NCBI GenBank assembly: GCA_944384415.1 | Contig: CALWTF010000004.1 | Coordinates: 1-52,721 of the forward strand | Length of the DNA: 52,721 nt | DNA from: an uncultured Clostridia bacterium | GTDB taxonomy: Bacteria; Bacillota; Clostridia; Christensenellales; UBA1242 | Direction of reading: 5' to 3' | Part shown: positions 5,712-52,721 of the stretch, in pieces | How the letters are laid out: each line of letters opens with the position of its first letter | Numbering within the stretch: position 1 is the first letter of the stretch | Made by a program: the position numbers and the translations under genes | Notes under the pieces: model-generated | Databases searched by the model: none | What the model was told of the DNA's origin: nothing | Seen by the model: the letters and a program-made list of their open reading frames with translations, nothing else

Positions 5712-5748
5712 TTTAGTATATATTTGGTTTTGGAGGGAATAAATTTAT

Positions 5749-5967
5749 ATGTCAAACGAATTTAAAAAATATGCAAAAGAACTTTCTAAAAAAGTTGCGA
5801 ACATTGATGTTTGTGAAAAGCATAAAATAAATAAAAGACTACTTTCAAAAAATAAAGACATTTTAAATAATTTAAATGATTTAGAAAATAGTTTTATTGC
5901 AGATTGGAGTTCTTTGACAGAATATGAAGATTGGTTGGTAAAAAACATTGGAAATAAAAAGAGGTGA
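5749..5967 (+). CDS. small protein upstream of mazF, candidate antitoxin
   Basis: 72 aa, charged, with no membrane segment. It is preceded by GGAGGG at 5732-5737 and overlaps the mazF start by 20 bases, the layout of an antitoxin-toxin pair. I do not see a ribbon-helix-helix or AbrB-type DNA-binding fold as expected for MazE/NdoAI; the visible features are a lysine-rich N-terminal half and an acidic, aromatic C-terminal segment ([14 protein letters not shown], about residues 53-66), the kind of segment that could occupy the toxin groove. Antitoxin function is inferred from position only. Confidence 0.65.
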
Positions 5968-6295
5968 ACTTTATTATGCAAATTTATCTCCGGTTGTTGG
6001 TAGTGAACAAGGGGGATTAAGGCCTGTATTAATTGTACAAAACGATATTGGGAATAAATACAGTCCTACTGTAATTGTTGTAGCTGTTACAAGCAAAATA
6101 AACAAAGCCAAAATTCCCACACATATTGAACTTGATGCTTCTACATATGGTCTTGAAAAAAATTCTGTTGTATTATTAGAACAAATAAGAACGCTTGACA
6201 AAAGTCGTTTACAACAGAAAATTGGACAGCTAGATGCATTAAAAATGCAAGCTATAAATAAAGCACTTTTAATTAGTTTAGGATTTTATTCATAA
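5948..6295 (+). CDS. mazF: MazF/NdoA family mRNA endoribonuclease toxin
   Basis: PemK/MazF toxins cleave RNA at short specific sequences. Conserved blocks are [21 protein letters not shown] (RGE...SEQGGxRP type, residues 3-23), RPVLIVQND, and the [13 protein letters not shown] block (about residues 75-88) that carries the conserved QIRTLDK segment. Length of 115 aa is normal. The start is TTG at 5948, the only codon that gives the conserved N-terminus; it lies within the preceding small gene, has no clear ribosome binding site of its own, and so depends on translational coupling. A terminator follows the stop at once. Confidence 0.93.
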
Positions 6296-6318
6296 AACGC
6301 TTAAAGCGTTTTTATTTT
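6294..6318 (+). terminator. rho-independent terminator after mazF
   Basis: AAAACGC (6294-6300) and GCGTTTT (6306-6312) pair around TTAAA and run into T-rich sequence; the stem begins inside the mazF stop codon. Confidence 0.8.
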
Positions 6319-6329
6319 TGTTTTTAGTA

Positions 6330-6358
6330 TTGACTTTTTGGCTTAATAAGGATATAAT
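6330..6358 (+). promoter_or_regulatory. strong promoter for the GLUG-repeat protein
   Basis: TTGACT (6330-6335), 17 bases, TATAAT (6353-6358), about 30 bases before the ribosome binding site GAGGAG. Confidence 0.75.
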
Positions 6359-6387
6359 TAGTATATAATACATTTGAGGAGAAGTTT

Positions 6388-9348
6388 ATGAGTGAGAATA
6401 AAGCTAAAAGCGCTAATTCAAGTGTTTGGTTTAAAAGTTTTATGATTTTTTTACTTGTTATTATAATTGCTTTAAGTCTTGGTTTAACAATCTTTTACTT
6501 TATGAGTGAAGATGAAAATCTATATTTAGATAAAACTTTAATAAATACAAACCTTAATGAAGAATTTTCAATATCTATTGTACACGATAATCCAGATGAC
6601 AATACAAAATATGAATTAAATTATGATTCAAATGTGTTGCAATTAGTTTCAAAAAGTGAAAATAATATGGATTATACTTTTAAAACAATTGCTTCAAAGC
6701 AAACTGAAATTGTTTTGTCAACTAATAATACAAGATTTGGAAATTTATCTTGTGTTGTAACAGTAGCCGATGGAACAGTGTCAAAACCTTTCTTGATAAG
6801 AAACGCTCAAGAATTGTCTGAAATTGGAACTGTTTCAAGTCGTCCTTTAAGTGCACATTATAAGCAAGTTAATGATATTGACTTAAGTAAAATTTCTAAC
6901 TGGACTCCAATTGCTTCAAGTGTAAGTAATCCATTTACTGGAACTTATGATGGTAACTACAAAACTATCTATAATCTTACTATAAACAACTCTACTACAA
7001 GTAATTATTCTGGTTTATTTGGTTATGTTGGAACTGGTGCATCAGTTTATAAACTTTACTTAAAAGATGTTAACATAACATCTTCTGCTCACTATGTTGG
7101 TTCTGTTGCTGGTTATTGTAACGGAAATATTGAGAGAGTAGAAGTTGTTGATGCTATAATTAATCAAACAACAACCGATACAGTTTCAAGCGATGGAACA
7201 GGTTTAGGTGGAATCGTTGGGGCTATAAGCCGTAATAGTGCAAATACAAAATTAAATAGAGTTTCATTCTTTGGAACATTGCGTAAAACAGGTTCAGTAA
7301 TAGGATTAACCGACCATTCAAACATTGGTGGTTTAGTTGGTAAAAATTCTGGTGCAACAATTTATAATAGTTATGCAATAGTAAATATTTATTCAAACGG
7401 TGATAATTCATATGCAGGTGGTTTGGTTGGATACAATCGTTATACAACTGAAACTAGAGATAGTGTAGAAAAATACACCACTAACCTAAAAGGTAACATA
7501 ATGAATTGTTATGCTGTAATTCAAGATATTAGTACAACTGGTTTTTCAAGTTCAAATGGTGCCATTGTAGGTTACAACTTAAATTGTGATGGTACAAATG
7601 AATTTATTAACAGTGAAACAAACAATGTTAACCGTTTTGTTGGTGTTTACTATTTATATGATAATGAGCACACATTACCTTGGATGCCAAACGGAACAGA
7701 TACTGAAAATGCTTATTTAATAAATGGTGTAAGTTTAAGTGAATTAAAACAACAATCTACATTTAAAACTTATTCAGTAAATTCAGTTAATGATGTAAAA
7801 ACAGACAGTTGGAATTTTGTAAAGGTTTGGGCAATTTCTGCCGATGTAAATAATGGTTTGCCAGTTTTAAGAGTTGATGGTGCTGATACTTCTGAAACTG
7901 TTTACGACCCTTATGCTAGTTTTATAGATGAAACTATTAATACAGCTGACAAGTTAAACAATATAAGAAATGATTTAGAAGGAATATATAAAATAACAGC
8001 TGACATTGATTTAACAGGATATTCTTGGGAACCTATTGGAACATTAGAAAATCCATTTAATGGAACAGTTGTTGTTTTAGATGAATATAAAATAACAGGA
8101 TTAAATGTTACAGGTGATTATCAATACGCTGGTTTATTTGGTGTAATTGGTCCAGATGCAAAAATTACAAATATGAAAATTAGTGGTACTATTAGAACTG
8201 GTACTTACAGTGGTGTTATAGCTGGTATTAATGAAGGTGTTATATCTGATTGTAATGTTTTATCAACTTCTAGCATAACTGCTGGTACTTATTCTGGTAT
8301 GTTGGTTGGTAGTAATACAGGTTATATTGAAAACTCAATTACCGAAGGTTCATTATCAATAACATCTGGTACAAATGAATGTATTGGTGGCTTGGTAGGT
8401 GAAAATTTTGGTACATTAGTTTCTTCTCAATCAAAAGCTTTAATGACTTTATCTTCAACTGATGCAAACTCTGAGTGGTATGTTGGTGGTATTTCTGGGC
8501 AAAACTATGGACAAATTTTAGAAGCTGAAAGATATGATAATGTAACAATTCAAGTAACAGGTAACACAAATCGTATATATGCTGGTGGTATATCAGGATA
8601 CAATGTAGGTAAAGTTACTAATTCAGTTGCATCTGCTATAAAAATTCAAGTTCCAAAAACAAATTCTAATAATTATGCAGGTGGAATTGTTGGATTTAAC
8701 TATGGTGAAGCAATAATTGAATTGTGTGAAGTTATAAATGGAACAATCGAGTCATATTGGACTGGTGGATTAGCTGGTTATAATTTAGGAACAGCTAATG
8801 GTACAATTGGAATTTCTCGTTCTATGGTAAATTCAACTATAACCTTGTTTGGTAATGAAATTGGTGGTTTAGTTGGAAGAATGCAACTTGGTACAATGCA
8901 AAACTGTGCAACTTTTGCAAGTTTATCTGGAAATAATATGTCTGGTTATGCTTCTACAATTGAAGGAAGCACAAACATTAGTGGTGATGGTAATTATGCA
9001 ACAGTAAAAAATTGTTTTTCAGCCGTAATTTATGATGCAAGCGCTGGTAAGAGATACACTGAAACCCGAAGCGAAGTTCGTGCAAGTAATGTTGCTATCT
9101 TGTTCTCAAGTGATAAAGGAAAAATTGCTGGATATGTTATTAATTGTATTTATGATTCTGACCTTTCTAGTGGCGCAGAAAAGAAATATAACAGTTACAG
9201 AATAGGAAGTGTAAGTATAAAAAATGAAGATGATGGTGCAAGAAATTCAAGTCAATGTAAAGAACCTTCAACCTTTACAAATCGTGGATTTAGTACAGAA
9301 TTCTGGTCATTTGTTTCAGGTAGTTATCCAACAATAAAAGGCTTATAA
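6388..9348 (+). CDS. membrane-anchored GLUG-repeat surface protein, 986 aa
   Basis: An N-terminal cytoplasmic stretch, then one membrane segment (about residues 16-40, FMIFLLVIIIALSLGLTIFY), then an exterior part. Residues about 45-130 look like an Ig-like beta domain. The rest is built from GLUG-type repeats, each with a core such as GGLVGKNSG, GGIVGFNYG or GGISGYNVG followed by a short beta turn; I count about thirteen. Two larger modules recur (DIDLSKISNWTPIA with PFTGTYDG, and DIDLTGYSWEPIG with PFNGT). Repeats like these form beta-solenoids in adhesins. The C-terminus ends in FWSFVSGSYPTIKGL, as in relatives. No LPXTG or cleavable signal is seen. Monocistronic, with its own promoter and terminator. 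Adhesion is inferred. Confidence 0.88.
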   Translation: MSENKAKSANSSVWFKSFMIFLLVIIIALSLGLTIFYFMSEDENLYLDKTLINTNLNEEFSISIVHDNPDDNTKYELNYDSNVLQLVSKSENNMDYTFKTIASKQTEIVLSTNNTRFGNLSCVVTVADGTVSKPFLIRNAQELSEIGTVSSRPLSAHYKQVNDIDLSKISNWTPIASSVSNPFTGTYDGNYKTIYNLTINNSTTSNYSGLFGYVGTGASVYKLYLKDVNITSSAHYVGSVAGYCNGNIERVEVVDAIINQTTTDTVSSDGTGLGGIVGAISRNSANTKLNRVSFFGTLRKTGSVIGLTDHSNIGGLVGKNSGATIYNSYAIVNIYSNGDNSYAGGLVGYNRYTTETRDSVEKYTTNLKGNIMNCYAVIQDISTTGFSSSNGAIVGYNLNCDGTNEFINSETNNVNRFVGVYYLYDNEHTLPWMPNGTDTENAYLINGVSLSELKQQSTFKTYSVNSVNDVKTDSWNFVKVWAISADVNNGLPVLRVDGADTSETVYDPYASFIDETINTADKLNNIRNDLEGIYKITADIDLTGYSWEPIGTLENPFNGTVVVLDEYKITGLNVTGDYQYAGLFGVIGPDAKITNMKISGTIRTGTYSGVIAGINEGVISDCNVLSTSSITAGTYSGMLVGSNTGYIENSITEGSLSITSGTNECIGGLVGENFGTLVSSQSKALMTLSSTDANSEWYVGGISGQNYGQILEAERYDNVTIQVTGNTNRIYAGGISGYNVGKVTNSVASAIKIQVPKTNSNNYAGGIVGFNYGEAIIELCEVINGTIESYWTGGLAGYNLGTANGTIGISRSMVNSTITLFGNEIGGLVGRMQLGTMQNCATFASLSGNNMSGYASTIEGSTNISGDGNYATVKNCFSAVIYDASAGKRYTETRSEVRASNVAILFSSDKGKIAGYVINCIYDSDLSSGAEKKYNSYRIGSVSIKNEDDGARNSSQCKEPSTFTNRGFSTEFWSFVSGSYPTIKGL

Positions 9349-9354
9349 ATAAAT

Positions 9355-9387
9355 AAAAAAGAGTGGTTAAAAAATCACTCTTTTTTT
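9355..9387. terminator. bidirectional terminator between convergent genes
   Basis: GAGTGGTT (9361-9368) pairs with AATCACTC (9373-9380); it has A-rich sequence before and a T-run after, so it can stop transcription from both sides. The T-run ends at the stop codon of the minus-strand gene. Confidence 0.85.
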
Positions 9388-10012
9388 ATTCACTAAAATT
9401 TTCAAAAATATTATTGTTTTCTTGACTTGTTTCGTTTGATTGTTCAAAGTAATTATTATATAATTCAGCTTCATTTTCATTTGATATATTTAACTCGTTT
9501 TCAGTTTGTTCAACCATTTCATTATTTTCAAAATTATTCAAATTAGATTGTTCTGTTGACTGTTCAACATTATTATCATTTGAAAACATTGGTTGTTCAA
9601 TGTAAGTGCTACTTTCTTGTTCGGTTTCAATTGAAGGTTGTTCAACAAATTGACTAATTGATGGAGTAATATTTTGGTTAGAGTTGTTTTGTGTATTATC
9701 TGTTTGCTGATTATAGTTGTTTTCAGGTGAGCTTGATTGTTCTTTTTCTTCATTAATAGTTGAATTTTGTGAAAATTGTTCATTTTCTAATTTTTGTTGT
9801 TCAACTTGAAGTTCTCGTAATCGAATTTCGTTTTCAATATTATTTTGCGAACCTATCATACCAATTTGTGCCATAAAAATTAGTGTTAATATGATTAAAA
9901 GAGAAATATATATTGCAAAACCAACAACCCTTCGTTTTGTTGAAATAACTTCTGCATTTGCTTTATTTTTTGATTTTGATGATGTTTTGGTTGAATTTTG
10001 GTTTCGTGTCAT
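9386..10012 (-). CDS. single-pass membrane protein with Q/N/E-rich tail, 208 aa
   Basis: Residues 1-27 are basic (N-in), followed by one membrane segment (about 28-48, VVGFAIYISLLIILTLIF). A short coiled-coil-like stretch (RELQVEQQKLENEQ, about 66-79) leads into about 130 residues of low-complexity sequence rich in Q, N, E and S with recurring EQS/EQP units, predicted to be outside the cell and unstructured. The strong ribosome binding site GGAGG stands just upstream on the minus strand. It is the second gene of a unit with the WalJ-like hydrolase, 52 bases apart. No family recognised; an envelope or division-related role would be speculation. Confidence 0.75.
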   Translation of the reverse strand: MTRNQNSTKTSSKSKNKANAEVISTKRRVVGFAIYISLLIILTLIFMAQIGMIGSQNNIENEIRLRELQVEQQKLENEQFSQNSTINEEKEQSSSPENNYNQQTDNTQNNSNQNITPSISQFVEQPSIETEQESSTYIEQPMFSNDNNVEQSTEQSNLNNFENNEMVEQTENELNISNENEAELYNNYFEQSNETSQENNNIFENFSE

Positions 10013-10064
10013 AAAAAAACTACCTCCAATTTATTTGTTGGTAGTATGTGAATTAACTTTTAAA

Positions 10065-10859
10065 TTATTCTTTTATTTTATAAATTCTGCCAACTTGTCG
10101 TTGTTGAGCAATATCAATAACTAAATTTTGATTACTGTTTGCTTTATTTGTTTTTAAAACATTTTGAACTGTTTGATATGCAAGTTGTGGTGTATTATTG
10201 TCTTCACTTAAATGTGCTAAAATTATGCCTCTAACTTTTTTCCCTAACATTTTTATAATTGCATTTGCGGTAGCATCATTACTTAAATGACCGTGATTTG
10301 AAAGTATTCGCTGTTTAAGTTGATATGGATAATTAGGATTTTTCATTAATTTTTCAACATCGTGATTAGATTCTAAAATTACCAAATCGCTTTGATAAAG
10401 TTTTTTAATTATATCATCTGTGATATGTCCCAAGTCTGTAGCGGAAGAAATTGTGGTTTTTCCATTTGAAATTGAAAAACCAACACAATGAATAGAGTCA
10501 TGGTCTAAATCAAAATTTGAAATATTAAATTCATTAATAGAAAAATCTTTATTATTAAATTCTACTTGTTGTTTTAAATTAATCCCATTAATTTTTTGTT
10601 CTAAAAGGGGCCAAATATATTGATGAGCATATATTTTGCAACCATATTTTCTACAAAAGTTTCCAACACCTGCAATATGATCTGAATGTTCGTGTGTTAT
10701 TAAAATGCTATCAATTTCACTTGGGTTCACATTTATAAGTGAAAGCCTTTTTTCAATTTCTAATTTTGATAACCCAGCATCAATTAGAATGCGTGTGTTT
10801 TCTCCTTCAACATATGTACAATTACCTTTACTTCCACTTCCTAGAACGCAAATTCTCAT
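10065..10859 (-). CDS. walJ: metallo-beta-lactamase fold hydrolase, WalJ/YycJ type
   Basis: 264 aa. The N-terminus (RICVLGSGSKGNCTYVEG) and the metal motif THEHSDHIAG (about residues 54-63) match the WalJ/YycJ branch of the MBL fold, linked in Bacilli to the WalRK cell-wall system and to DNA-related processing. The later ligand regions are seen as SATDLGH (about 139-145) and SNHGHLSND (about 187-195). The start has GGAG a few bases upstream. It is not next to walRK genes here; the partner downstream is the low-complexity membrane protein. The exact substrate is unknown. Confidence 0.88.
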   Translation of the reverse strand: MRICVLGSGSKGNCTYVEGENTRILIDAGLSKLEIEKRLSLINVNPSEIDSILITHEHSDHIAGVGNFCRKYGCKIYAHQYIWPLLEQKINGINLKQQVEFNNKDFSINEFNISNFDLDHDSIHCVGFSISNGKTTISSATDLGHITDDIIKKLYQSDLVILESNHDVEKLMKNPNYPYQLKQRILSNHGHLSNDATANAIIKMLGKKVRGIILAHLSEDNNTPQLAYQTVQNVLKTNKANSNQNLVIDIAQQRQVGRIYKIKE

Positions 10860-11042
10860 AATAACTCCAAACCATAAAACTATTTTATATTTTAATATTC
10901 TACTTTAAAAACAAAAAAAAAGCAACAATGATAAATTATTTATGCTAAAAAAAGATTTATTTTATCATAAATGTATAAAAAATTGTGGATATCGCATCTA
11001 TGTTTTAAATTTTGGAATTTATAATTATTCTAGGTGGTGAAA

Positions 11043-13334
11043 ATGAAAAAACTGAATTCAACTACAATTTTGTTTCATTGTTTGAAATATTTTTTGTTTT
11101 TTATTTTATTTTACATATTGCAAATTGCTGAAATAGGGAATGTAAAACCATTTGCTTTTGGTATGTTATTTGCATTAGTATGGTGTAATCAAAAAATTTG
11201 GTTATTAGCACCATTATTTATTTGTTCATCAATATTAGCAGATTTTACAATTTTAAATTTAATTAGCTCATCTTTTTGTGCTTTATTTTTTTGTTTGGTT
11301 TATTTTTTGCATTACAAGTTTAAAAAACCTTTTAAACCAATATTAATGACATTTTATGCGTTTTTATCTCAATTTGCGTTTTTATATGTAAATAGTTTTA
11401 CTGCAGAAAATTTTGCAACTGCCTGTATTAGTGTTGTTGTAGGGCTAATTGTTATGTATGCTTATATATGTTTTCTGCAAGGAGTTTTATTGCGTGGTAT
11501 TAAAAGACAATGGACATTAGATGAACTGATTTCAGCAGGTATTTTTATTGTTGCAATTGGTGTTGGAATAGGTTGCTTACCAAATCCGTATGATATAGTT
11601 CGCGTTGCTTTTACTTCTTTTTTAATTATTACTGCGGTTTGGGTATTAAATCAATCAAGTTCAATAATCTTTTCAATTTTGCTAGGGCTTGGTGTTTGTT
11701 TATCAAATGGAAATGTTGAATTTTTAGCACTTACTATAATTTGGTCTTTAGTTGCCAATATGATGAAAAGTTCAAAAAAAATATTTTCGTGTTGTGCCAT
11801 AATTTTAAGTGATATTTTTATAAATCTTTATTTTTTCTATCAATACAATATATATAATTTAATTGCTATATTTGCAGGGGTTTTACTGTTTTTGCTAATT
11901 CCTGATAAAACTTTAATAAAATTGCAAACTATTTTTAATTTTGAAAGTAATTCGTTTAGTATTAAAAATGTTATTAGTAAAAATCGTGAATTATTATCAA
12001 ACAGGATACTACAAACAAGTGAAATTTTTATTGAAATGCAAACAGTTTTTCAATCTATGATTAAAAAGCAAGTTAGTGATAATGAAGCAAGTTTAGTTTT
12101 AGCAAAAGAATTAATAAATAAAGTTTGTGAAAAGTGTTCAAATAAAGAAAATTGTTTAAGATTAAACTATGAAAAAACATTAAACAATATTGAGTATTTA
12201 ATGAAAATTGCTTTGGAAAGAGGGAGAGCAACAGTTATTGATGTTCCAAAAACTATGGTTGGAAATTGTTCAAGAATTAATGTTGTTATTCCTTATGCAA
12301 ATAATCTATCTAAACAATATAAATCGCAAAAGAAAATTCAAACAAATTTAGATAATAGCAAAATGTTATTAGGTGAACAACTTTTTGGTATTGCACAAAT
12401 TTTAAAGTCGTTATCATATGAAGTTAATTTAAACATTACATTTAATCACGATAAGGAAGAAAAAATTATAGAAAACTTAATATATCAAAATATAGTTTGC
12501 ATTGAAGTGTTGGTTTATTATCAAAACTTAAGCAGTTGCAATGTAAGTTTATTGGTAAAAAGCAGTAACGCAAAAGATGAAAAAATTGCCTTAATAGTAT
12601 CAAAAATTATAGGCACAAAAATGGAAGTTTCCAATGTATACTATTCAAATAAAGCTGGGTTTTCTGTTGTGAATTTAAAATCAGCAATAATGTTTGATGT
12701 TGCTTTTGGTTGTGCTGGTGTAACTAAAAATGGAAGCGAAAAAAGTGGTGATACTCATTCGGTTTTACGCATAAATGACAATCAGTTTTTAATAGCATTA
12801 TGTGATGGTATGGGAAGTGGTGAACAGGCAGAAAAAACAAGTGCTTTGGCATTATGTTTAATAGAAAATTTTTATAAAGCAGGTTTTGAAAGCTCTCTTA
12901 TTTTATCAAGTGTTAATAAACTTTTAACTTTAAAAGGTGATGAGAATTTCAATGCTTTAGATGTTTGTGTTTTTGATTTAAACAAAGGGTTTTGTGATAT
13001 TATAAAAGTTGGTTCGCCAAGTGGTTTTATTAAATCTGATGAAAAAACAGAAATAATTAATTCGGGGTGTTTGCCTTTGGGAATTTTAGATGAAATAAAA
13101 CCTGAAGTGCAAAGCAAAATTTTAAAAAATGGTGATATGGTAATTTTAGTTACTGACGGTATTATAGATGCAGTTGAAGATGAAAATGCATTATGTAATT
13201 TTATAAATAATATTAATGCAACCAATCCACAAGTTATGGCTGAACTTATTGTTGAATATGCTATGCAACAACAAGGTAATTTGGCAAATGATGATATGAC
13301 AGTTCTTGTTGGAAGATTATGGGAAAAAGTTTAG
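11043..13334 (+). CDS. spoIIE: stage II sporulation protein E, PP2C-type phosphatase
   Basis: In spore formers this membrane phosphatase dephosphorylates SpoIIAA to activate sigma-F in the forespore. The N-terminal ~300 residues form a run of hydrophobic segments (about ten); a central cytoplasmic region has a cysteine cluster (CEKCSNKENC, about residues 361-370); the C-terminal PP2C domain carries ALCDGMGSGEQAE (about 583-595), VTDGIIDAVED and NDDMTVLVGR, which hold the metal-binding Asp residues. Length of 763 aa fits. The ATG at 11043 is chosen because the GTG codons at 11034-11039 overlap the AGGTGG ribosome binding site. This is the only clear sporulation gene in the window. Confidence 0.93.
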   Translation: MKKLNSTTILFHCLKYFLFFILFYILQIAEIGNVKPFAFGMLFALVWCNQKIWLLAPLFICSSILADFTILNLISSSFCALFFCLVYFLHYKFKKPFKPILMTFYAFLSQFAFLYVNSFTAENFATACISVVVGLIVMYAYICFLQGVLLRGIKRQWTLDELISAGIFIVAIGVGIGCLPNPYDIVRVAFTSFLIITAVWVLNQSSSIIFSILLGLGVCLSNGNVEFLALTIIWSLVANMMKSSKKIFSCCAIILSDIFINLYFFYQYNIYNLIAIFAGVLLFLLIPDKTLIKLQTIFNFESNSFSIKNVISKNRELLSNRILQTSEIFIEMQTVFQSMIKKQVSDNEASLVLAKELINKVCEKCSNKENCLRLNYEKTLNNIEYLMKIALERGRATVIDVPKTMVGNCSRINVVIPYANNLSKQYKSQKKIQTNLDNSKMLLGEQLFGIAQILKSLSYEVNLNITFNHDKEEKIIENLIYQNIVCIEVLVYYQNLSSCNVSLLVKSSNAKDEKIALIVSKIIGTKMEVSNVYYSNKAGFSVVNLKSAIMFDVAFGCAGVTKNGSEKSGDTHSVLRINDNQFLIALCDGMGSGEQAEKTSALALCLIENFYKAGFESSLILSSVNKLLTLKGDENFNALDVCVFDLNKGFCDIIKVGSPSGFIKSDEKTEIINSGCLPLGILDEIKPEVQSKILKNGDMVILVTDGIIDAVEDENALCNFINNINATNPQVMAELIVEYAMQQQGNLANDDMTVLVGRLWEKV

Positions 13335-13393
13335 ATTATTTAATATTTATTATACAAAATGATAATTGTTTTAAATATTTATTGTAAAGTATA

Positions 13394-13422
13394 TTGAAAA
13401 ATTTTTCAAATTGTTGTATACT
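13394..13422 (+). promoter_or_regulatory. tilS promoter overlapped by a perfect palindrome
   Basis: TTGAAA (13394-13399), 17 bases, TATACT (13417-13422). The -35 box is the left end of the perfect 16-base palindrome TTGAAAAATTTTTCAA (13394-13409), which could be an operator. Confidence 0.65.
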
Positions 13423-13464
13423 AATAAAAGGAATAGTTAATTGCTTTTGAGGTGTTACATCGTT

Positions 13465-14817
13465 ATGGAAATGGATAAAGTTTTTAAAACAATTGAAGAA
13501 AATAATATGTTAAGTGCTGGCAATGTTGTTGGTGTTGCTTGTAGTGGTGGTTCTGATTCAATGGCATTATTACATTTTTTGAATACAAACCGTGAAAAAC
13601 TTGATATAGATGTTATTGCAATTTATATTGACCACGGTACCAGAGAAAATGATGCTAGTGATGGTTATTTTGTGTCAAACTATTGTAAATTAAATCATAT
13701 TAAATTTTATAAGTTTTCTGTTGAATCAAAACTTTTAGCAAGACAAAAAGGATACACAATAGAACAGGCTTGTCGTGAAGCTAGATATGGTGTTTTTCAA
13801 AGTTTAAAAGAGCGCGGATTAGTTGATAAAATTGCAATTGCACATCATCAAAGTGACCAAGCAGAAACTGTACTTTTACACATACTTCGAGGTTCTGGTT
13901 TAAACGGTGCAAGTGGTATGGAATATGTAAGAAACAATTTTTATATTAGGCCATTTTTAGATGTAAGCAAACAAGAAATTTTATCTTATATTTATGAAAA
14001 TGAACTTTCATATGTTGAAGATGAACAAAATGCTGAAAATATATTTTCAAGAAATATTCTAAGAAATAAAATTTTCCCTGAATTAAGAAAAGTTTGGAAA
14101 AATGTTGATGAAACATTATGCAATTTCGGAAAAATTTGTCGTGAAGATGACAAAGCAATTCGTCAACTTATGAATTTTGATGCAGTTCTTGCTAGCCCAA
14201 AAATGGTTAAAATACCAATTTCTTATTTTTTATATCCAATGGCACAAGTTTCAAGATTAATTTTTGATTGTTTTGCTAAACTTGGTGTAGAAGCAGATAT
14301 AGAGCAACGACATATACAATTGCTATATAATTTAGCTAAAAATGGCGAAAATGGTTCTAAATTAGATATGCCTAATGGTGTTGTTGCTCATAGAGAATAT
14401 GAGTACTTAACTTTGATTTTAAAAAAGAATAAAGTTGAAATCAATAGCAGTTGGCCATTTAAACTTGGAACAACAAAAATTGATGGGCTGGGTAAAATAA
14501 AAGTTAAAAAAACAGTTTTGCGTGAACCAAAACTTGGTTGTTTGTTAGTAGATGCTGATAAAATTCCAGAAAATGCTATATGGCGTTTTAGAAAAGATGG
14601 AGATTTTATTGAAAAGTTTGGTGGTGGTTTAAGAAAAATAAAAGCTTTTTTAAATGATAAAAAAGTTCCTGCTCGTTTAAGGTCAAGTTTACCAATGCTT
14701 GCTGTGGGTGGTGAAATTTTAGTAATTGCTGGTTTAGAAATAAGCGAATCTTTAAAAGTTACAGAACAAACAAAACAGGCTTTATTAATAGAATTTGATA
14801 GAGAAAATTGGGTTTAA
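13465..14817 (+). CDS. tilS: tRNA(Ile)-lysidine synthase
   Basis: Converts the wobble C of tRNA-Ile(CAU) to lysidine with ATP and lysine, which changes its reading from AUG to AUA. The PP-loop CSGGSDSMALLH is at about residues 25-36, followed by IDHGTREN (about 54-61) and the conserved AHHQSDQAETVLLHILRGSG (about 123-142). The TilS C-terminal region includes RFRKDGDFI and LKAFLNDKKVP-like KIKAFLNDKKVPARLR. Length of 450 aa is normal. The ATG at 13465 follows GAGGTG at 13449; a TTG-initiated frame from 13441 would precede that site. It is the next gene after spoIIE, as in many Firmicutes, but has its own promoter. Confidence 0.94.
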   Translation: MEMDKVFKTIEENNMLSAGNVVGVACSGGSDSMALLHFLNTNREKLDIDVIAIYIDHGTRENDASDGYFVSNYCKLNHIKFYKFSVESKLLARQKGYTIEQACREARYGVFQSLKERGLVDKIAIAHHQSDQAETVLLHILRGSGLNGASGMEYVRNNFYIRPFLDVSKQEILSYIYENELSYVEDEQNAENIFSRNILRNKIFPELRKVWKNVDETLCNFGKICREDDKAIRQLMNFDAVLASPKMVKIPISYFLYPMAQVSRLIFDCFAKLGVEADIEQRHIQLLYNLAKNGENGSKLDMPNGVVAHREYEYLTLILKKNKVEINSSWPFKLGTTKIDGLGKIKVKKTVLREPKLGCLLVDADKIPENAIWRFRKDGDFIEKFGGGLRKIKAFLNDKKVPARLRSSLPMLAVGGEILVIAGLEISESLKVTEQTKQALLIEFDRENWV

Positions 14818-14831
14818 TACCCGATTTTTTT
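14807..14831 (+). terminator. rho-independent terminator overlapping the tilS stop
   Basis: ATTGGGT (14807-14813) pairs with ACCCGAT (14819-14825) around TTAAT, followed by a T-run. The stop codon lies in the loop. Confidence 0.75.
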
Positions 14832-14840
14832 ATTTTATCT

Positions 14841-14870
14841 TTGACATAATGTTTTTTAATATGATATACT
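14841..14870 (+). promoter_or_regulatory. promoter for the flippase-like / AI-2E transporter pair
   Basis: TTGACA (14841-14846), 18 bases, TATACT (14865-14870), just upstream of the GGGAAG ribosome binding site. Confidence 0.7.
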
Positions 14871-14901
14871 AACTTATATGTATTTTTAGTGGGAAGTAAT
14901 A

Positions 14902-16281
14902 ATGGTTAAACGAAAAAAAATAAGACTGCAAATAAATCAACTGAGTGCAACATATCAAAAGAAAAGGTATGGTATTGTTCTGTTTATAAAACAAGGCATT
15001 ACAAAACCTGTATATCCCAAAAATAATCAAAATTTAACTTTCCATTCAATAAATTCTTTAGCATTTATCCAAAATGAAAATATTGATTCTGAGAAGATGA
15101 CTGAAAACATTATTACCGAATCAGAATCTGCTGTTAGTAAACGAAAAACAAAAAAACAAAAAATAATAAGTTTAATTTTCTTTATTATCAATATTGCTAT
15201 TGTAGTAGGAATTGTAGTTTATAACTTTGTCTTTTCAAATCCTGTATCAATAACTGAATTATTTCAAACCACAATAAATTGGTGGTGGTTATTAATAGGA
15301 ATAGTAATTTATTTTGTACTAAGTCTGTTTGATTCATTTAGAACCTTTATTCTTATAAAACATTCTACTGGTAATTCAAGACCGTGGTTAAGTTATAAAT
15401 CATCAGCAATATGTAGATATTATGATAGTATAACTCCTATGAGTACTGGGGGACAGCCTTTTCAAATTTTTTATTTGCGTAAATGGGGAATGAGTGCCAG
15501 CAGTGCAACAAGTGTGCCAATAGCAAAATATGTGCTTTCACAAATTTGTTTTACCATAGGTGCAACCATAGTGTTGCTTGTTCATCATACAAAAGTTTTA
15601 GAACTTAGTCCTGTTGTTGTAACTGCGTGTTGGATTGGTTATGCTTTAAGTCTTGTTTTGGTTTTATCTGTTGCGTTTTTAGCAATTAGTAAAAAAGTTG
15701 CACCAGCCTGTGTTTCTGGAATTTTAAAATTTTTATCTAAATTACATTTAATAAAAGATTATAGAAGAACCTTTTTAAAAGTAATGCGTGGAGTTCGTGA
15801 ATATATATCTATAACACGGCGTTTTGTAAAAAACTTTTGGGTAATGTTATGGGTGGAGCTAAGTGCAGCTATTTATTGGTTACTATACAATTCATTAGTT
15901 TTTGTCGTTTATTGTATGTTGGTTGATTTTGATATTAATATGTGGTTACCAATATTAATTGCTACTGTTGTTTGTGATATGGCTTCAAATTATATGCCAC
16001 TTCCTGGTGCTTCGGGTGCCGCTGAGGGTGCGTTTTTAATTGTATTTGGTGTAGCTACCATTTTTACAACAGATGGTTCTCCAATTTTTTCAGGTGATTT
16101 GTTAGTTTGGGCTATGTTATTTTGGAGAGTGCTTAATTACTATGGTAATATTTTGCAAGGTCTTGTTATACTTGCTTATGATTTTTTCCATGGAAACAAA
16201 AAAATTCCAGCAGTTTTGGAAAAATATCAAAAAAAAGAAAGTTTAGATAATCAACAAATTAAAAATAGGGGGATAAGATAA
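14902..16281 (+). CDS. lysylphosphatidylglycerol synthase TM-region / flippase-like membrane protein (UPF0104)
   Basis: 459 aa. Residues about 95-440 hold multiple membrane segments and the family motif TPMSTGGQPFQIFYLRKWG (about 179-197), plus PLPGASGAAEGAFLIVFG (about 369-386), typical of the UPF0104/AglD-like family, the flippase half of MprF-type proteins; the catalytic lysyl-transferase half is absent. Residues 1-94 are an unusual soluble, basic N-terminal extension with no recognised domain. A shorter start at an ATG near 15097 has only a poor ribosome binding site, so the long form is preferred. It overlaps the next transporter by one base. The substrate is unknown; a lipid or glycolipid is the usual guess. 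Confidence 0.85.
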   Translation: MVKRKKIRLQINQLSATYQKKRYGIVLFIKQGITKPVYPKNNQNLTFHSINSLAFIQNENIDSEKMTENIITESESAVSKRKTKKQKIISLIFFIINIAIVVGIVVYNFVFSNPVSITELFQTTINWWWLLIGIVIYFVLSLFDSFRTFILIKHSTGNSRPWLSYKSSAICRYYDSITPMSTGGQPFQIFYLRKWGMSASSATSVPIAKYVLSQICFTIGATIVLLVHHTKVLELSPVVVTACWIGYALSLVLVLSVAFLAISKKVAPACVSGILKFLSKLHLIKDYRRTFLKVMRGVREYISITRRFVKNFWVMLWVELSAAIYWLLYNSLVFVVYCMLVDFDINMWLPILIATVVCDMASNYMPLPGASGAAEGAFLIVFGVATIFTTDGSPIFSGDLLVWAMLFWRVLNYYGNILQGLVILAYDFFHGNKKIPAVLEKYQKKESLDNQQIKNRGIR

Positions 16282-17777
16282 TGAAAGAACAGCTTGAACC
16301 ACAAATAAATATCAATCAGCGTTCAGGAAAATCTCCAAGATGGTATACTTGGGTTTGGTGGTTGTTTGTTGCACTTACTTGTGCGTTGTTGGTTTCAAAT
16401 TTAGCTGGGGACACTTTAAAAACAATTTTCTTTTCGCTTTTAGCTGGTTTAACACCTATTATTGCTGGTGTAATTATTGTATTTTTATTGTTACAACCAA
16501 TAAATTGGATTGAAGAAAAATTGTTAAAGAATGCCTTTATTGGTAATCCTAAAGCCAAAATTTATAAAAGATGGATATCTTTATCAATTTGTTATTTAGT
16601 TATAATAACAATATTTGCTTTAATTTTAGCATTTGCTATTCCGTATATTGTTGAACAGTTACAAAATTTAGTTGCTAACAGAGATGTTTATATAGAAAAA
16701 ATTGAAGCAGAATTAACCGAACTTGTAAGTAATTTAACATCGCTAAGTGATACCCAGGTTCAAGAGTCTATAAGTAGTATGATAAATTCATTTGTAGATA
16801 TGATTTCACAGTGGGTAACTTCTTTACAAAATGATATTAGCAACATTGTTAGCATTATAGTTTCTTTTGTTGTTGCTATTCTTATGGGATTGATTATTTC
16901 TTTTTTAATTTTAAAAGATAAGGAACTTATAGCAAGCACTGCTAGAAGATACACATATGCTTATAACACAAGGAAAAAAGCCGATGAAATTTTAGCAACA
17001 ACCAGAAGAAGCACATCAATGTTAAATCAATGGTTAGTTAGTAATTTAATTGTAATGGCAATTTTATTTGCTGTTTCTTGGATTGGATATTTAATTATCG
17101 GTGTGCCGTTATCTTTTGTTTGTGCATTATTGTTAGCATTGTTAAGTATAGTTCCATATATAGGTGGCTTCATTGCATTGATTCCTTTAGGGTTAATGTG
17201 TTTGGTTTTTGGAACAGTTACTCAAGCTTTAATAGGTATTATATTTAGCTTAATTGTTTGGGCTTTAATAACAACATTTATACCACCAATTATATTTAGT
17301 AAAAGGCTTCAAACTCGTTCATTAGTTATTATTTTAGCAATGATTATTTTTGGTTCTGCTTTTGGAATTTGGGGTATGATTTTAGCAGCACCTGTTGCTT
17401 CAATGATAATGATTGTAATGCAAGAAAGAATGGAAGTAAAAGAAGCTTTGCGAGAAAGAGAAGAACTTGTTGATGCTGGAATAATTGAAGAAGATTCATC
17501 AGATAGCATAGCAGAAATGCTAGATTTAACTGAAGACATTGACCCAGTTTTAACTTTAGAAGAAGCAAATGAGGAAAACACTGTTGGTATAAGGCGTAGA
17601 ATAATTAGGGCAAGTAATAAAAAGCAAAAAAGTTTAAAACTTTCAAATTCTAAAAATAAAACATCTTTTAAAGTAAAAGATGAAAGTTTGGAAACAGATA
17701 ATAATGTAAAAAAAGAAAGTGGCAAATCTGAACAAGAAAAAGTTTCAACAAAAACAACAAAAAAAGGTAAAAAATAA
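16281..17777 (+). CDS. AI-2E family transporter (PerM/YdiK/TqsA type)
   Basis: 498 aa membrane protein with two N-terminal hydrophobic segments, a periplasm-like loop with coiled-coil character (about residues 130-180), then the conserved C-terminal membrane bundle including LALLSIVPYIGGFIALIPLG (about 285-304) and GSAFGIWGMILAAPVA (about 359-374). The family ranges from AI-2 export to Na/H antiport, so the substrate cannot be assigned. The last ~110 residues form a charged cytoplasmic tail that starts acidic and ends lysine-rich, longer than usual. Its start overlaps the UPF0104 stop, and a terminator follows, so the two form a two-gene unit. Confidence 0.88.
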   Translation: MKEQLEPQININQRSGKSPRWYTWVWWLFVALTCALLVSNLAGDTLKTIFFSLLAGLTPIIAGVIIVFLLLQPINWIEEKLLKNAFIGNPKAKIYKRWISLSICYLVIITIFALILAFAIPYIVEQLQNLVANRDVYIEKIEAELTELVSNLTSLSDTQVQESISSMINSFVDMISQWVTSLQNDISNIVSIIVSFVVAILMGLIISFLILKDKELIASTARRYTYAYNTRKKADEILATTRRSTSMLNQWLVSNLIVMAILFAVSWIGYLIIGVPLSFVCALLLALLSIVPYIGGFIALIPLGLMCLVFGTVTQALIGIIFSLIVWALITTFIPPIIFSKRLQTRSLVIILAMIIFGSAFGIWGMILAAPVASMIMIVMQERMEVKEALREREELVDAGIIEEDSSDSIAEMLDLTEDIDPVLTLEEANEENTVGIRRRIIRASNKKQKSLKLSNSKNKTSFKVKDESLETDNNVKKESGKSEQEKVSTKTTKKGKK

Positions 17778-47423: not shown

Positions 47424-48380
47424 ATGAAGTTTGTTGAATTAAAATCAAGTTTAAATAATGTTAAAAATGCCTATTTTATTTTAGGTAAAGATTCATATCT
47501 TAGAAATTCTGCACAAAAATTAATAGAAAATGCGTGTGTTAAAAGTTTACCAGATTTTAATATAAATAGTTTTGATAATGAAAACTTTGATATTACTAAA
47601 ATTTTAGATATATGTCAAAGTATGCCTTTGTGTGATAATAGAAGAGTTGTTATTATTAAAAATATTACTCTAGATAAAACAAGTGTAGATATGATTTTAA
47701 AATATTTACAAAAACAAAATAATTATTGTTGTTTACTTTTTGTTAAAGAAGAGCTGTCAACAAATGAAAAACCATTGTTGAATTTTTGTGAAACGGTTGA
47801 TTGTAATTATCTTGATGAAAAAATAATTGAAAAAATAATTGCAAAAAAATTACAAGAAAAATTAATAAAATCAGATATTTATACTATTAAATGCTTAATT
47901 TCATATTGTAATTATAATTTAAGCAAAATAAATTTAGAATTAGAAAAATTAATAGCTTATGTTGGTGAAGGTGGAATACTTAAAAAAAATCATATAGAAT
48001 TAATGGTTGTAAAAGATGTTGAATATAGTATTTTTGAATTAAGTAATGCAGTTCTTGAAAAAAACGGAGAAGTTGCTTTTAAGGTTTTAACCTATATGAT
48101 TGAAAATGGCGAGTCAATACAAAATATGTTTGGTCTATTGCTTTCAAGTTTTAGAAGATTATTTTTTGCGAGAACTTCTAATTTATCAAATACAGAATTA
48201 GCTAAACATTTAGAAGTTAAAGAATATGCCATAAAATTAGCTAGAAATAAAAAGTTGTCAGCTACAAAATTGAAGGAGATTTTGGAATTAGGTTCAAAAC
48301 TTGATTTTCAAATAAGAAAAGGTGAAATTACAGATAAAAATGCTATTTACACTTTTATATCAAATTCTATATTAATTTAA
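47424..48380 (+). CDS. holA: DNA polymerase III delta subunit
   Basis: 318 aa clamp-loader delta subunit, which opens the beta clamp. N-terminal FILGKDSYLRNSAQKLI (about residues 18-34), DNRRVVIIKNI (about 72-82), the AAA-like middle KNHIELMVVKDVEYSIFELSNAV and the C-terminal collar region (FRRLFFARTSNLS, about 247-259) fit the family. comEC then holA is the usual Firmicute order. The stop codon overlaps the alr stop on the other strand. Confidence 0.9.
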   Translation: MKFVELKSSLNNVKNAYFILGKDSYLRNSAQKLIENACVKSLPDFNINSFDNENFDITKILDICQSMPLCDNRRVVIIKNITLDKTSVDMILKYLQKQNNYCCLLFVKEELSTNEKPLLNFCETVDCNYLDEKIIEKIIAKKLQEKLIKSDIYTIKCLISYCNYNLSKINLELEKLIAYVGEGGILKKNHIELMVVKDVEYSIFELSNAVLEKNGEVAFKVLTYMIENGESIQNMFGLLLSSFRRLFFARTSNLSNTELAKHLEVKEYAIKLARNKKLSATKLKEILELGSKLDFQIRKGEITDKNAIYTFISNSILI

Positions 48381-49456
48381 TATTTACTTGATGTTTTTAT
48401 AGTGGTTGGTATAGAAGAAAAATTTGTTAAAATTTCATACTCTATTGTTTTACAGCATTTAGCAATAAATTTTGCTGAAATGCTTTTTTTATTATCTGTT
48501 CCTAAAATAGTTGCATAATCTCCTATTTTTACTTTTTCAATATTAGAAATATCAACGATAGTCATATTCATACATATATTAGCGCAGATTTTTGCTTTTT
48601 TATCATTTATTAAAAAATAACCTTTTTTTGCGTAAGTTCTCATAAGTCCGTTTGCGTATCCAATAGATACAACTGCTAATTTACTGTTCTTATTTACTTT
48701 AAAGTTTGTACCATATCCAATAAAACTATCTTTTTTTACATTTAATATATTAATAATCTTTGCTTTTATGGTCATAACAGGTAATAATTCGTTACAACCA
48801 AAACCATAAAGTCCTATTCCTATTCTAGAAATATCTAAACGCATTTCTGGATATTTTAAAAAGTTTTCTGTGTTAACAATGTGTGCTGGAATATTTGGTA
48901 TTAGGTTCCTAAATTTTAAAAATTTTTTAAATTGTTCTTGCGTTCTGTTAGAATTAGAATCAGAGCCACCAATATGTGAAAAAATTCCCACTATTTGTAC
49001 ATATTTATTTTTTTCTATCAAATGTAATATTTGTTTTAATTCTCTTAATTTTGAAACTCCTAATCTATTCATTCCCGAATTTACTATAATATGAACTTTG
49101 CAAAAAAAATTTAATAAATTTGATATTTTTATAATTTTTAATGCTTCAAAACGACTTTTAATTGAAATTTGTATATTATTTTCTATGCATTTTTTTAATT
49201 TAATTGTACTAAATGCACCAATAACTACTATTGGTTTTTCTGTTAATTTTTTTAATTTTAAAGCTTCCAAATTTGAAGCCACAGCATAACCATCAACAAT
49301 ATTATTAAGTGTTGGTATACAATGTTTTAAACTGTGTCCATAAGCATTTGATTTTACAACAGCGTATATTTTTTCTTTATTGCATAGTTGTTTAAAATAT
49401 TTAGCATTTAAAAGTAAATTATTTGTGTTAATAAATTTAATTATTTCTTTATTCAT
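48377..49456 (-). CDS. alr: alanine racemase
   Basis: PLP enzyme that makes D-alanine for peptidoglycan. 359 aa with the PLP-lysine motif YAVVKSNAYGHS (about residues 31-42), SRIGIGLYGFG (about 211-221), and the catalytic tyrosine in IGYGTNFKV (about 243-251). Small departures: GHS for GHG after the lysine, and IGYANGLMR where IGYADGxxR is usual. GAGG lies ten bases before the start on the minus strand. It stands alone on the minus strand, convergent with holA, the two stop codons sharing bases. Confidence 0.92.
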   Translation of the reverse strand: MNKEIIKFINTNNLLLNAKYFKQLCNKEKIYAVVKSNAYGHSLKHCIPTLNNIVDGYAVASNLEALKLKKLTEKPIVVIGAFSTIKLKKCIENNIQISIKSRFEALKIIKISNLLNFFCKVHIIVNSGMNRLGVSKLRELKQILHLIEKNKYVQIVGIFSHIGGSDSNSNRTQEQFKKFLKFRNLIPNIPAHIVNTENFLKYPEMRLDISRIGIGLYGFGCNELLPVMTIKAKIINILNVKKDSFIGYGTNFKVNKNSKLAVVSIGYANGLMRTYAKKGYFLINDKKAKICANICMNMTIVDISNIEKVKIGDYATILGTDNKKSISAKFIAKCCKTIEYEILTNFSSIPTTIKTSSKY

Positions 49457-49882: not shown

Positions 49883-50860
49883 ATGAAAGTTATTGAAGTT
49901 AAAAATTTACAGAAAAATTTTATACGCAAAGAAAAAGCCAAAAAAGATAATGGCAAAAAGTGTTTATTTAAAAAAATAAAAATTACAAAAAACGCGGTTG
50001 ATAATATTTCTTTTGAAGTTGAAGAAGGTGAAGCTTTAGCTTTTATCGGACCAAACGGAGCGGGAAAATCAACAACAATTAAAATGTTAACTGGTATTCT
50101 TTATCCTACTTCTGGAGAAATTAAAGTACTAGGCTTTAACCCAACTAAAAACAGAGTAAAATTATCTTATGAAATTGGAACAGTGTTTGGACAAAAAGAA
50201 CAACTTTGGGTACATTTATCAGCTTATGAAAATTTTAAATTTTTTGGTTCAATTTATAATATTAAAAAAGATGAACTTGAAAAACGAATAGATGAGCTTG
50301 CTAATATTTTTGAGATTAAAGAATTTATGTATCAAACTGTTAAAAGTTTAAGTTTAGGACAACGAATGAAATGTGAAATGGTGGCAAGTTTACTTCATAA
50401 GCCTAAAATGCTTTTTTTTGATGAACCTACAATTGGTTTGGATCCAATAGCAAAAGAAACACTAAGGAAACTTATAAAAAAGATAAATAAAGAATTACAT
50501 ACAACTATTATTTTTACTTCTCATGATATTGGTGATATTGAAGAAGTGTGTAAAAGAGTTATAATAATTAATAATGGAAAAATTGTGCTTGACGATAATA
50601 TGAGAAATTTGAAATATCATTATTTAAATAAAAAAATTGTGGAAGTAAATTTAAAAAAAAGTGTGAAATTAAAAGAAAAGAATGGAATTACAATTTTAAA
50701 AGCAAAAGATACATTGTATAAAATTGAAGTTGATATGAATAAAACATCAATTGATGAGCTTATGTCCTTATTCAATACCGAGGATTTACAGGATATTACT
50801 ATTTCAAGCACACCACTTGAAGAAATTATTAAAAACATTTATAGAGGAAAAAATGACTAA
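49883..50860 (+). CDS. ABC-2 type exporter, ATP-binding protein
   Basis: 325 aa. Walker A GPNGAGKSTT (residues 56-65), Q-loop region GTVFGQKEQLWVHLSA, signature LSLGQRMKCEM (about 155-165), Walker B MLFFDEPTIGLD (about 174-185), H-loop FTSHD (about 213-217). The N-terminal insert KEKAKKDNGKKCLFKK (about 16-31) and GQKEQLW motif match the COG4586 group, which pairs with two membrane proteins of the DUF990/ABC2_membrane_6 type. GAAGGA precedes the ATG. The export substrate is unknown. Confidence 0.92.
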   Translation: MKVIEVKNLQKNFIRKEKAKKDNGKKCLFKKIKITKNAVDNISFEVEEGEALAFIGPNGAGKSTTIKMLTGILYPTSGEIKVLGFNPTKNRVKLSYEIGTVFGQKEQLWVHLSAYENFKFFGSIYNIKKDELEKRIDELANIFEIKEFMYQTVKSLSLGQRMKCEMVASLLHKPKMLFFDEPTIGLDPIAKETLRKLIKKINKELHTTIIFTSHDIGDIEEVCKRVIIINNGKIVLDDNMRNLKYHYLNKKIVEVNLKKSVKLKEKNGITILKAKDTLYKIEVDMNKTSIDELMSLFNTEDLQDITISSTPLEEIIKNIYRGKND

Positions 50861-51650
50861 ATATTTTTCTGTTTTTAAAACTAGTTTAAGGCAAGAGACA
50901 AAAACTTTTGCTGATTTATTAACATCTATTATTTCGTTTGCCGTTATTATATACATTTTTAAAATGTTATGGGATTTTATTTATGGGGGGAATGGCGGTG
51001 GTCAACTTATATATGGCTATTCTCTTAATATGATGATTTGGTATATGATTATGGCTGAAATTTTGATGTATTCTGTAAGAGCTACCAATGTTACTAAGGC
51101 TTTTAGTAATGATATTAAATCAGGTAAAATAGCATATCAACTAAATAAACCTTACAACTATTATGCATATCAAGTTTTTTCTCAAAGTGCAATATTTATT
51201 TGGAAACTAATTTTTCTTGTTCCAACTGGAATAATTGTGGGATTGCTTTTGCTTGGGTCAATAGAAAATTTTAGTTTTATTTATATTATTCCTATTTTGT
51301 TTTCTTTATTTTTAGCAACCTTTTTAACAACTATTATTTATGGCACAGTTGGTTTGTTGGCTTTTTGGATTGAAGAAGCCACACCTTTTACTTGGATTAT
51401 TCAAAAAATACAAATGATTTTAGGGTTATTTTTTCCACCTGAATTTTTTCCTTTTTGGTTGCAACCAATTATTATATATAGTCCTATTTATGCAATGATG
51501 TCTGGTCCTTGTAAGTTGTTTGTAGATTTTTCTTGGGATTTGTTTTTGCAAGTTAGTATTTCTCAAATTTCATATATTATTTTATTTGTAGTTATTGGAT
51601 TAATTCTTTATAAATTTGGAATAAAGAAGGTAAATGTAAATGGTGGATAA
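50853..51650 (+). CDS. ABC-2 family exporter membrane protein 1
   Basis: 265 aa with six hydrophobic segments. The ATG at 50853 follows AGAGGAAAAA and gives the family N-terminus TKYFSVFKTSLRQE; a longer frame from 50751 is inside the ATPase gene. Sequence features (MMIWYMIMAEI, GPCKLFVDFSWD near the C-terminus) fit the COG4587 permease. Overlaps the ATPase end by 8 bases and the second permease start by 11 bases. Confidence 0.88.
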   Translation: MTKYFSVFKTSLRQETKTFADLLTSIISFAVIIYIFKMLWDFIYGGNGGGQLIYGYSLNMMIWYMIMAEILMYSVRATNVTKAFSNDIKSGKIAYQLNKPYNYYAYQVFSQSAIFIWKLIFLVPTGIIVGLLLLGSIENFSFIYIIPILFSLFLATFLTTIIYGTVGLLAFWIEEATPFTWIIQKIQMILGLFFPPEFFPFWLQPIIIYSPIYAMMSGPCKLFVDFSWDLFLQVSISQISYIILFVVIGLILYKFGIKKVNVNGG

Positions 51651-52458
51651 AAATATTAAAAGAAAAAACGGTTTTTGGAGTAATTTTAGATTTATTTTTA
51701 GTTGTTTTGCGCTAAATATAAAAAAAGAATGGCAATATAAATCTTCATTTTTTATGCAAATAATAATGATGATATTGAACGACCTTTTCTTTATTATACA
51801 GTGGTATATTATTTTTAATATAGTTGACAATATTGGTGGTTATGGATTTTATGAAACAATGCTTTTATGGGCTGTCTCGGCTGGTGGTTTTGGCTTTTCT
51901 TATACATTATTTGGTGGTGCGTGGAATCTTAAAGACATTGTTTATGAAGGTAAACTTGATGTATATCTTACACAACCCAAAAATGCTTTAATTAATGTTT
52001 GTTGTTCATCGACAAATATTTCAGCAATTGGGGATATAATTTACGCTTTTGTTGTTCTTATTATAATTGGAGCGCCTTGGTGGTGGTATTTTGTTATGAT
52101 ACCTGTTATGATTATTAGTGGAATTATATATGTTTCGGTTTATATAACTTTTTGTTCTTTATGTTTCTATATCAAACGAGGAGATTCTGTTGCATACACA
52201 ATTGAAAGTCAAATGTTAAAATTTGCCACTTATCCACCAGCTATATATAATTTCACGGTAAAAGTTATTCTTTTCACTATTATTCCTGCATTCTTTTTCA
52301 CATTTATACCTACACAATATTTTTTCTTAACATTTAATATATGGTGGGTATTGGGTACTATTGGGGTAATGATATTTTGGGTTATGCTTGCTTTTGTTTC
52401 ATTTCATTTTGGTTTAAGGCGATATAATTCTGGTAATCTTATGAATGGAAGATTATAA
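51640..52458 (+). CDS. ABC-2 family exporter membrane protein 2 (DUF990 type)
   Basis: 272 aa with six hydrophobic segments. The motif YEGKLDVYLTQPKNALINVCCSS (about residues 105-127) and the aromatic C-terminal bundle with FIPTQYFF match the COG3694 permease that partners COG4587. AGAAGG sits nine bases before the ATG. Third gene of the operon, which ends at the terminator at 52579. Confidence 0.88.
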   Translation: MVDKNIKRKNGFWSNFRFIFSCFALNIKKEWQYKSSFFMQIIMMILNDLFFIIQWYIIFNIVDNIGGYGFYETMLLWAVSAGGFGFSYTLFGGAWNLKDIVYEGKLDVYLTQPKNALINVCCSSTNISAIGDIIYAFVVLIIIGAPWWWYFVMIPVMIISGIIYVSVYITFCSLCFYIKRGDSVAYTIESQMLKFATYPPAIYNFTVKVILFTIIPAFFFTFIPTQYFFLTFNIWWVLGTIGVMIFWVMLAFVSFHFGLRRYNSGNLMNGRL

Positions 52459-52578
52459 ATTTAATATGATAATATAATGATTATATTTTTTAAAATTTTA
52501 TAAAGTATTTTGATTTTTTAAGCTTATAATTTGATATTATTATGGTATTTATTTTTATTAATTAGATATGAAAATAAA

Positions 52579-52605
52579 AAACCCTTGTAAATTAAGGGTT
52601 TTTTT
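52579..52605. terminator. terminator of the ABC operon
   Basis: AAACCCTT (52579-52586?) pairs with AAGGGTTT (52594-52601) around GTAAATT, followed by T-run; A-run upstream makes it able to serve the minus strand too. The tRNA fragment's 3' end is seven bases away. Confidence 0.85.
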
Positions 52606-52607
52606 AT

Positions 52608-52652
52608 TGGTGGACGATCAGGGACTCGAACCCTGGACCCACTGATTAAGAG
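52608..52652 (-). other. 3' half of tRNA-Lys(CUU): probable attachment site of an integrated element
   Basis: On the minus strand the sequence from anticodon loop CTCTTAA through stem TCAGT, variable loop GGGTC, T arm CAGGG TTCGAGT CCCTG, acceptor arm ATCGTCC, discriminator A and CCA is a clean tRNA-Lys 3' half. The 5' half is missing: the next bases (52653 on) give CATGC instead of the ACTGA needed to pair with TCAGT, and no D arm or acceptor 5' strand (GGACGAT expected) appears up to 52721. Breaks at the anticodon loop are the typical core of tyrosine-recombinase att sites. A pseudogene left by an old excision, or an assembly join at the contig end, is possible. Confidence 0.7.
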
Positions 52653-52721
52653 GCATGAATAAAACTTGTTTTTCAAGGTCTTTTAATGTTATCAAATCCC
52701 TTAACATCTCTTATTTTATAG

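Follow-up and report, generated by a model that had tools for sequence, protein, structure and literature searches.

The right edge of the window, which is the whole of contig C4 of genome G000 (52,721 nt, the window end being the contig end), is with a probability of about 0.93 the attR of a mobile element from the R1/R2 family, integrated by a tyrosine integrase at the single tRNA-Lys(CTT) gene of this genome. G000 is a metagenome-derived assembly of 1.05 Mb in 23 contigs. In the proposed mechanism, recombination would take place in the anticodon loop of the tRNA gene, with an exact crossover that we infer, and the copy of the tRNA 3' half brought in by the element would restore the gene at the element's left end, the attL on contig C7. 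The 3' half originally present in the host would thereby be displaced to the right end (attR) and would be the half found in the window. Autonomous members of the family carry an integrase and an excisionase; many others are cargo units without an integrase, which stack in tandem and are probably moved in trans.

The half runs on the minus strand from C32 of the tRNA at position 52652 to the CCA ending at 52608, and reads CTCTTAATCAGTGGGTCCAGGGTTCGAGTCCCTGATCGTCCACCA. A perfect minus-strand 3' half from the anticodon loop to the CCA had been noted in the preliminary description, and this stands. ARAGORN called no complete tRNA at this position in the window. The best other match to the half in G000 is an intact tRNA-Lys(CTT) gene on contig C7 (49 nt, 98%, E=5.6e-18), located 288 nt from the right end of that contig, and the 45-nt half together with one trailing A is identical to it. 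No further tRNA-Lys(CTT) was found in the assembly, whose other lysine tRNA is TTT, on C19. The second copy of the half within an intact tRNA-Lys, which had been predicted, is therefore present, and, as in Islander-type islands, G000 has both an intact tDNA and a displaced copy of its 3' part without mismatch. The features discussed are collected in Table 1.

Table 1. Positions, sizes and contents of features in the window, in G000 and in related genomes.
Feature	Genome or locus	Position or size	Strand	Basis or contents
holA-like gene, right-flank synteny anchor	window	47424-48380	+	same gene near tRNA-Lys in G003, G007
Alanine racemase-like gene, right-flank synteny anchor	window	48377-49456	-	same gene near tRNA-Lys/MinD in G003, G007, G008
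ABC transporter operon (ATPase, two permeases), chromosomal side of junction	window	49883..52458	+	ORFs; ATPase match
Hairpin and T-run behind tRNA 3' half	window	52574..52606	.	sequence AAAAAACCCTTGTAAATTAAGGGTTTTTTT; similar hairpins after half in relatives
Displaced 3' half of tRNA-Lys(CTT), chromosomal copy at attR	window	52608..52652	-	45/45 identity to G000:C7 gene
Right end of integrated element, attR side, cut by contig end	window	52653..52721	-	profile match; 88% identity to G045, G129
Intact tRNA-Lys(CTT)	G000:C7	39836-39911		
GC-rich insert with relict half	G000:C7	39912-40200		
Intact tRNA-Lys with changed acceptor stem, relict half	L045 (G007:C5)	9570-9810		
Different element in the same tRNA-Lys	L040 (G018:C7)	4921-17618		integrase, two HTH genes, Zot-family gene
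tRNA-Lys half beside different flank	L044 (G005:C128)	8756-8968		contig stops 168 nt further
Complete unit	G015	3.0 kb		
Complete unit	G019	4.1 kb		
Complete unit	G023	3.6 kb		cargo: P27-type terminase small subunit, ParB-like, radical SAM proteins
Complete unit	G040	4.3 kb		
Complete unit	G179	2.1 kb		
Cargo	G049			MmeI-type restriction enzyme
Cargo	L224 (G091:C5)	3743-11511		DruE-like helicase and 1009-aa partner
Cargo	L085 (G190:C9)	986-8754		DruE-like helicase and 1009-aa partner
Cargo	L083 (G129:C61)	639-5023		RT and Avd-like genes
Cargo	L088 (G209:C1)	1000-8000		RT and Avd-like genes
Cargo	L077 (G045:C10)			RT and Avd-like genes

Beyond position 52652, the 69 nt that remain before the contig end are AT-rich and contain no 5' half that would pair with the tRNA fragment, as had been described. 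They are not unrelated DNA, as had also been claimed, given that the same sequence is conserved beside the same tRNA-Lys half in other genera and represents the right end of an element family. A profile from which the window was excluded matches the stretch with E=1.5e-11 and 39.9 bits, compared to at most 0.8 bits for 200 shuffled sequences, and the closest right ends are those of G045 and G129. In a family-wide survey with a profile of the right end, this end is present in 50 of the 309 family genomes, spread over 16 genera. The exact junction pattern was found in 24 of these 309 genomes and the reversed pattern in none. In the window, as elsewhere in the element family, the conserved right end directly abuts C32 of the tRNA-Lys half. 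Public records with this junction come from uncultured gut Clostridia, including Candidatus Onthoplasma faecipullorum and Candidatus Caccopulliclostridium gallistercoris, and a scan of IMG/VR with the junction pattern gave no match. The pattern also matched in Scalindua, Chthonomonas, Oribacterium and a few other genomes, which were set aside because of their non-matching flanks.

The conserved flank also bears on the nature of the half itself. It is hardly credible that the half is the 3' end of some other tRNA-like RNA gene, such as a tmRNA, or belongs to an intron-split tRNA. The one sign of this, an Rfam tmRNA match over the window end, reaches 10.5 bits against a gathering score of 47, and the tmRNA reading was rejected. 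Moreover, the half agrees with tRNA-Lys at every base, anticodon loop included, and in relatives an intact tRNA-Lys lies in cis, 2-4 kb away. The right end has no Rfam match above threshold and is adjoined upstream by variable cargo genes. Behind the half, the hairpin that had been read as the terminator of the ABC operon is present, but it lies between two converging units and resembles the tRNA terminator of the relatives. The earlier reading is thus half the story at best, and the hairpin is probably a terminator common to the tRNA and the converging ABC operon.

Since the junction lies only 69 nt from the end of a contig in a metagenome-derived assembly, an assembly chimera or strain mixture could be imagined, in which the real chromosome has an unbroken tRNA here and the attachment of the 69 nt is false. 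This is very improbable, as the same fusion of an element end to C32 occurs in dozens of independent assemblies, which a chimera would not reproduce. A chimera is refuted as the sole explanation, and a minority empty-site allele in the population is possible. It is common for contigs to break off no more than a few hundred bases from an element end, as the window does, and we infer that repeated ends or strain variants break assemblies at these places.

The arrangement of the chromosomal site is seen in three relatives of the same genus. In G003, G007 and G008, minD and its neighbours, tRNA-Lys, pgi and the alanine racemase-like gene occur together at one intact tRNA-Lys, and the holA-like gene is also part of this neighborhood in G003 and G007. 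In G000, the left neighbours of the tRNA-Lys site are found on C7 and the right neighbours in the window, indicating that both contig ends face one tRNA-Lys site. As the genes flanking the two contig ends are adjacent in the relatives, the insertion is assigned to the stretch between C7 and the window that is missing from the assembly. The half and the intact tRNA-Lys of G000 lie on different contigs, and the join of C7 to the window rests on synteny rather than on reads; the gene order of these relatives supports the flanking arrangement. The site is empty or near-empty in G003, G007 and G008, in agreement with the suggestion that an empty site should exist in related genomes. In the window, the ABC operon occupies the place of pgi in the same-genus relatives, and a weak pgi match is found elsewhere in G000, on C5. 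The flank has thus also been rearranged. No tRNA half was seen between the alanine racemase-like gene and the ABC operon in the window, and the operon is therefore not established as cargo.

In element-bearing genomes, the CCA of the intact tRNA-Lys is followed by a terminator, AAATCCCTTATAAAATAAGGGATTT, and then by four direct TGTCTAAAA repeats, which are probably integrase arm sites. A profile of this left end matched 35 genomes from 13 genera, either directly after tRNA-Lys or after another half, and in the same-genus G006 the left end directly follows tRNA-Lys. Complete units have the order intact tRNA-Lys, left end, cargo, right end and tRNA half. Half and intact gene flank the unit directly, in the same orientation on one replicon, in G015, G019, G023, G040 and G179. 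The expectation of an intact tRNA-Lys at the other end of the element is borne out by these units and by the intact gene at the end of C7. Furthermore, a right end with its half is immediately followed by another left end in G040, G061, G095, G129 and G166, which therefore carry tandem units.

The element had been proposed to begin at about position 52653 and to extend past the window. The 69 nt agree with this as the right end of the family; the assembly of G000 does not contain the element itself. The left-end profile found no match in the assembled contigs, the gap between C7 and the window being itself unassembled. After the intact tRNA-Lys on C7 there is instead a scar of about 265 nt with a relict half, so that one has to assume either a stacked array or one or more earlier events. 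The gap would hold an element of this family or an array of them, and it may comprise more than one unit in a stack, or a first unit that has decayed. In G001, G003 and G007, too, tRNA-Lys is followed by scars that contain relict halves but no element. Together with the scar on C7, they lend some weight to the view that the half is a relic of an element that integrated long ago and was largely lost, leaving a short decayed remnant between the contigs. This view is nevertheless rather unlikely. The half and its trailing A have kept full identity with the intact gene, and the 69-nt end shares 88% identity with right ends from other genera whose units look intact. Moreover, the contig breaks off inside the element, after 69 nt, and many intact-looking elements are likewise cut by a contig end.

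The scars have features of their own. On G000 C7 and in L041, L042, L045 and L082, GC-rich inserts of 100-200 nt are located within relict tRNA-Lys halves, or next to them, a short way downstream of the intact gene. These inserts are alike between G000, G001 and G007, and are present in a single copy in G000. In G007 (L045), the acceptor stem of the intact tRNA-Lys is changed (ATGACCC) and the neighbouring relict keeps the genus-typical GATCGTCC, as if an element had replaced the 3' half and the 5' half had then adapted.

Other elements use the same target gene. A different element of 12.6 kb resembling an inovirus-type prophage is inserted in the tRNA-Lys of G018 (L040), and in G005 (L044), of the same genus as G000, a tRNA-Lys half stands beside a different flank. 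A different type of tRNA-Lys element, such as a phage like that of G018 with its other integrase and Zot gene, might on this ground have made the junction in the window. The probability of this is slight, as the right-end flanks in G018 and G005 differ from that of the window, which matches the R1 family.

The integrase of the family is seen in G091, in which an element of 11.8 kb is complete from the left end through a tyrosine integrase, an excisionase and cargo to the right end and half, with the tRNA outside the contig. The integrase (429 aa, tyrosine type, Pfam E=1.7e-26) adjoins the left end, and an excisionase-like protein of 70 aa (TIGR01764, above cut-off) is encoded nearby. The attribution of such junctions to a tyrosine recombinase is thus substantiated in this autonomous member, whereas the cognate integrase is not in the G000 assembly. 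The G091-type enzyme is missing there along with the unassembled element itself, and the sole tyrosine recombinase of the assembly is a chromosomal Xer-like gene beside lexA. Likewise, an integrase near either tRNA copy, as had been anticipated, does not occur in the G000 assembly but is found among relatives. In ten loci, 38-41 nt separate the left end from the 3' end of the integrase gene, which is on the opposite strand and is complete, contig-cut or truncated. A tyrosine integrase adjoins the left end in G088 and G091, among others, and just a C-terminal integrase remnant remains beside it in G019, G023 and G040. A short coiled-coil ORF of G019 and G023, at first a candidate cargo gene, is the C-terminal tail of a G091-type integrase. 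The G269 integrase was dismissed as the cognate enzyme, because its relatives are not associated with the family ends. The integrase survey found none in the units of G015 and G179, which have both att ends, as in CIMEs. Among six proteins tested from the complete G091 element, Pfam recognised no relaxase or conjugation genes, and three of the six matched no family.

G015 and G179, two genomes of different genera, have integrase-less units with 97.7% identity across 1675 nt, and the right part of this unit recurs in G040 and G262 at 94-98%. The alanine racemase-like proteins of G015 and G019, two family members, share only 35% of their residues. The contrast indicates a recent transfer between genera of units without an integrase. 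Such units would probably be mobilised in trans, and loss of the integrase after arrival is a possible alternative. The cargo of the units, which includes lipoproteins, is varied. The DruE-like helicase of G091 and G190 was identified with PADLOC (E=3.5e-187), its 1009-aa partner has no family match, and the unit is 96% identical between the two genera. Units with the end type closest to that of the window carry RT and Avd-like genes. Complete DGRs are found in G129 and G209, with template and variable repeats of 108 nt, and 18 of 18 and 19 of 19 differences between them, respectively, fall at template adenines. In L083, the variable repeat lies near the N-terminus of a DUF6273-AAA protein, and a metallopeptidase-like gene follows. 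Units with other cargo (G023, G066) are also close to the window end, and the missing cargo of G000 therefore cannot be named.

Several known systems resemble this family. Tycheposons of Prochlorococcus are tRNA-targeted cargo elements in small-genome bacteria, and by this description they are alike in both target and host type. Islander islands are defined by a regenerated tDNA and a displaced fragment, and anticodon-centred sites and tandem arrays have been listed among them (PMC4383910). The present elements likewise combine a regenerated tRNA at one end, a displaced 3' fragment at the other and a tyrosine integrase; however, Islander requires an integrase for each island (PMC4383910), whereas many units here lack one, and the present family has an integrase and conserved ends of its own, by which it is defined. 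The nearest published pattern is that of the Dehalococcoides ssrA islands, which are tandem, repeat-bounded and varied in cargo, some of them with an integration module at the left edge and others lacking one, and for which cis-mobilizable elements and accretion were invoked (PMC3146451). In both cases one target gene carries tandem units with and without an integration module, though the target is tmRNA and the enzyme a serine recombinase in Dehalococcoides (PMC3146451), as opposed to tRNA-Lys and a tyrosine integrase here. As cited in the same source, the CIMEs and ICESt1-type tandem accretion of Streptococcus also involve stacked units with both att ends and no integrase (PMC3146451); unlike in those systems, no conjugative helper was identified here, and mobilisation in trans would have to be assumed.

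The mechanism is thus ordinary tRNA-targeted integration, with tandem, partly integrase-less islands, and given the Islander and Dehalococcoides precedents the kind of element is already known. A search of the open-access literature found no description of tRNA-Lys islands in Christensenellales, and the element family itself appears to be undescribed. More tentatively, and as a view that is doubtful at present, the tRNA-Lys locus might act as an integron-style cassette site, into which the integrase of autonomous members would serially insert short units that lack an integrase, have conserved ends and mostly keep to one cargo orientation, so that defence genes and DGRs would be exchanged between genera and the 3' half of an essential tRNA repeatedly overwritten. 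The observation at the edge of one contig has become a defined, searchable element family at one tRNA-Lys hotspot of uncultured Christensenellales-type gut bacteria. This family links integrase-less units and tandem stacking with a cargo of Druantia-like genes, MmeI-type restriction and complete DGRs. The frequent assembly breaks at tRNA-Lys in these genomes, through which such a variable locus is easily missed in MAGs, also find a reason in it.
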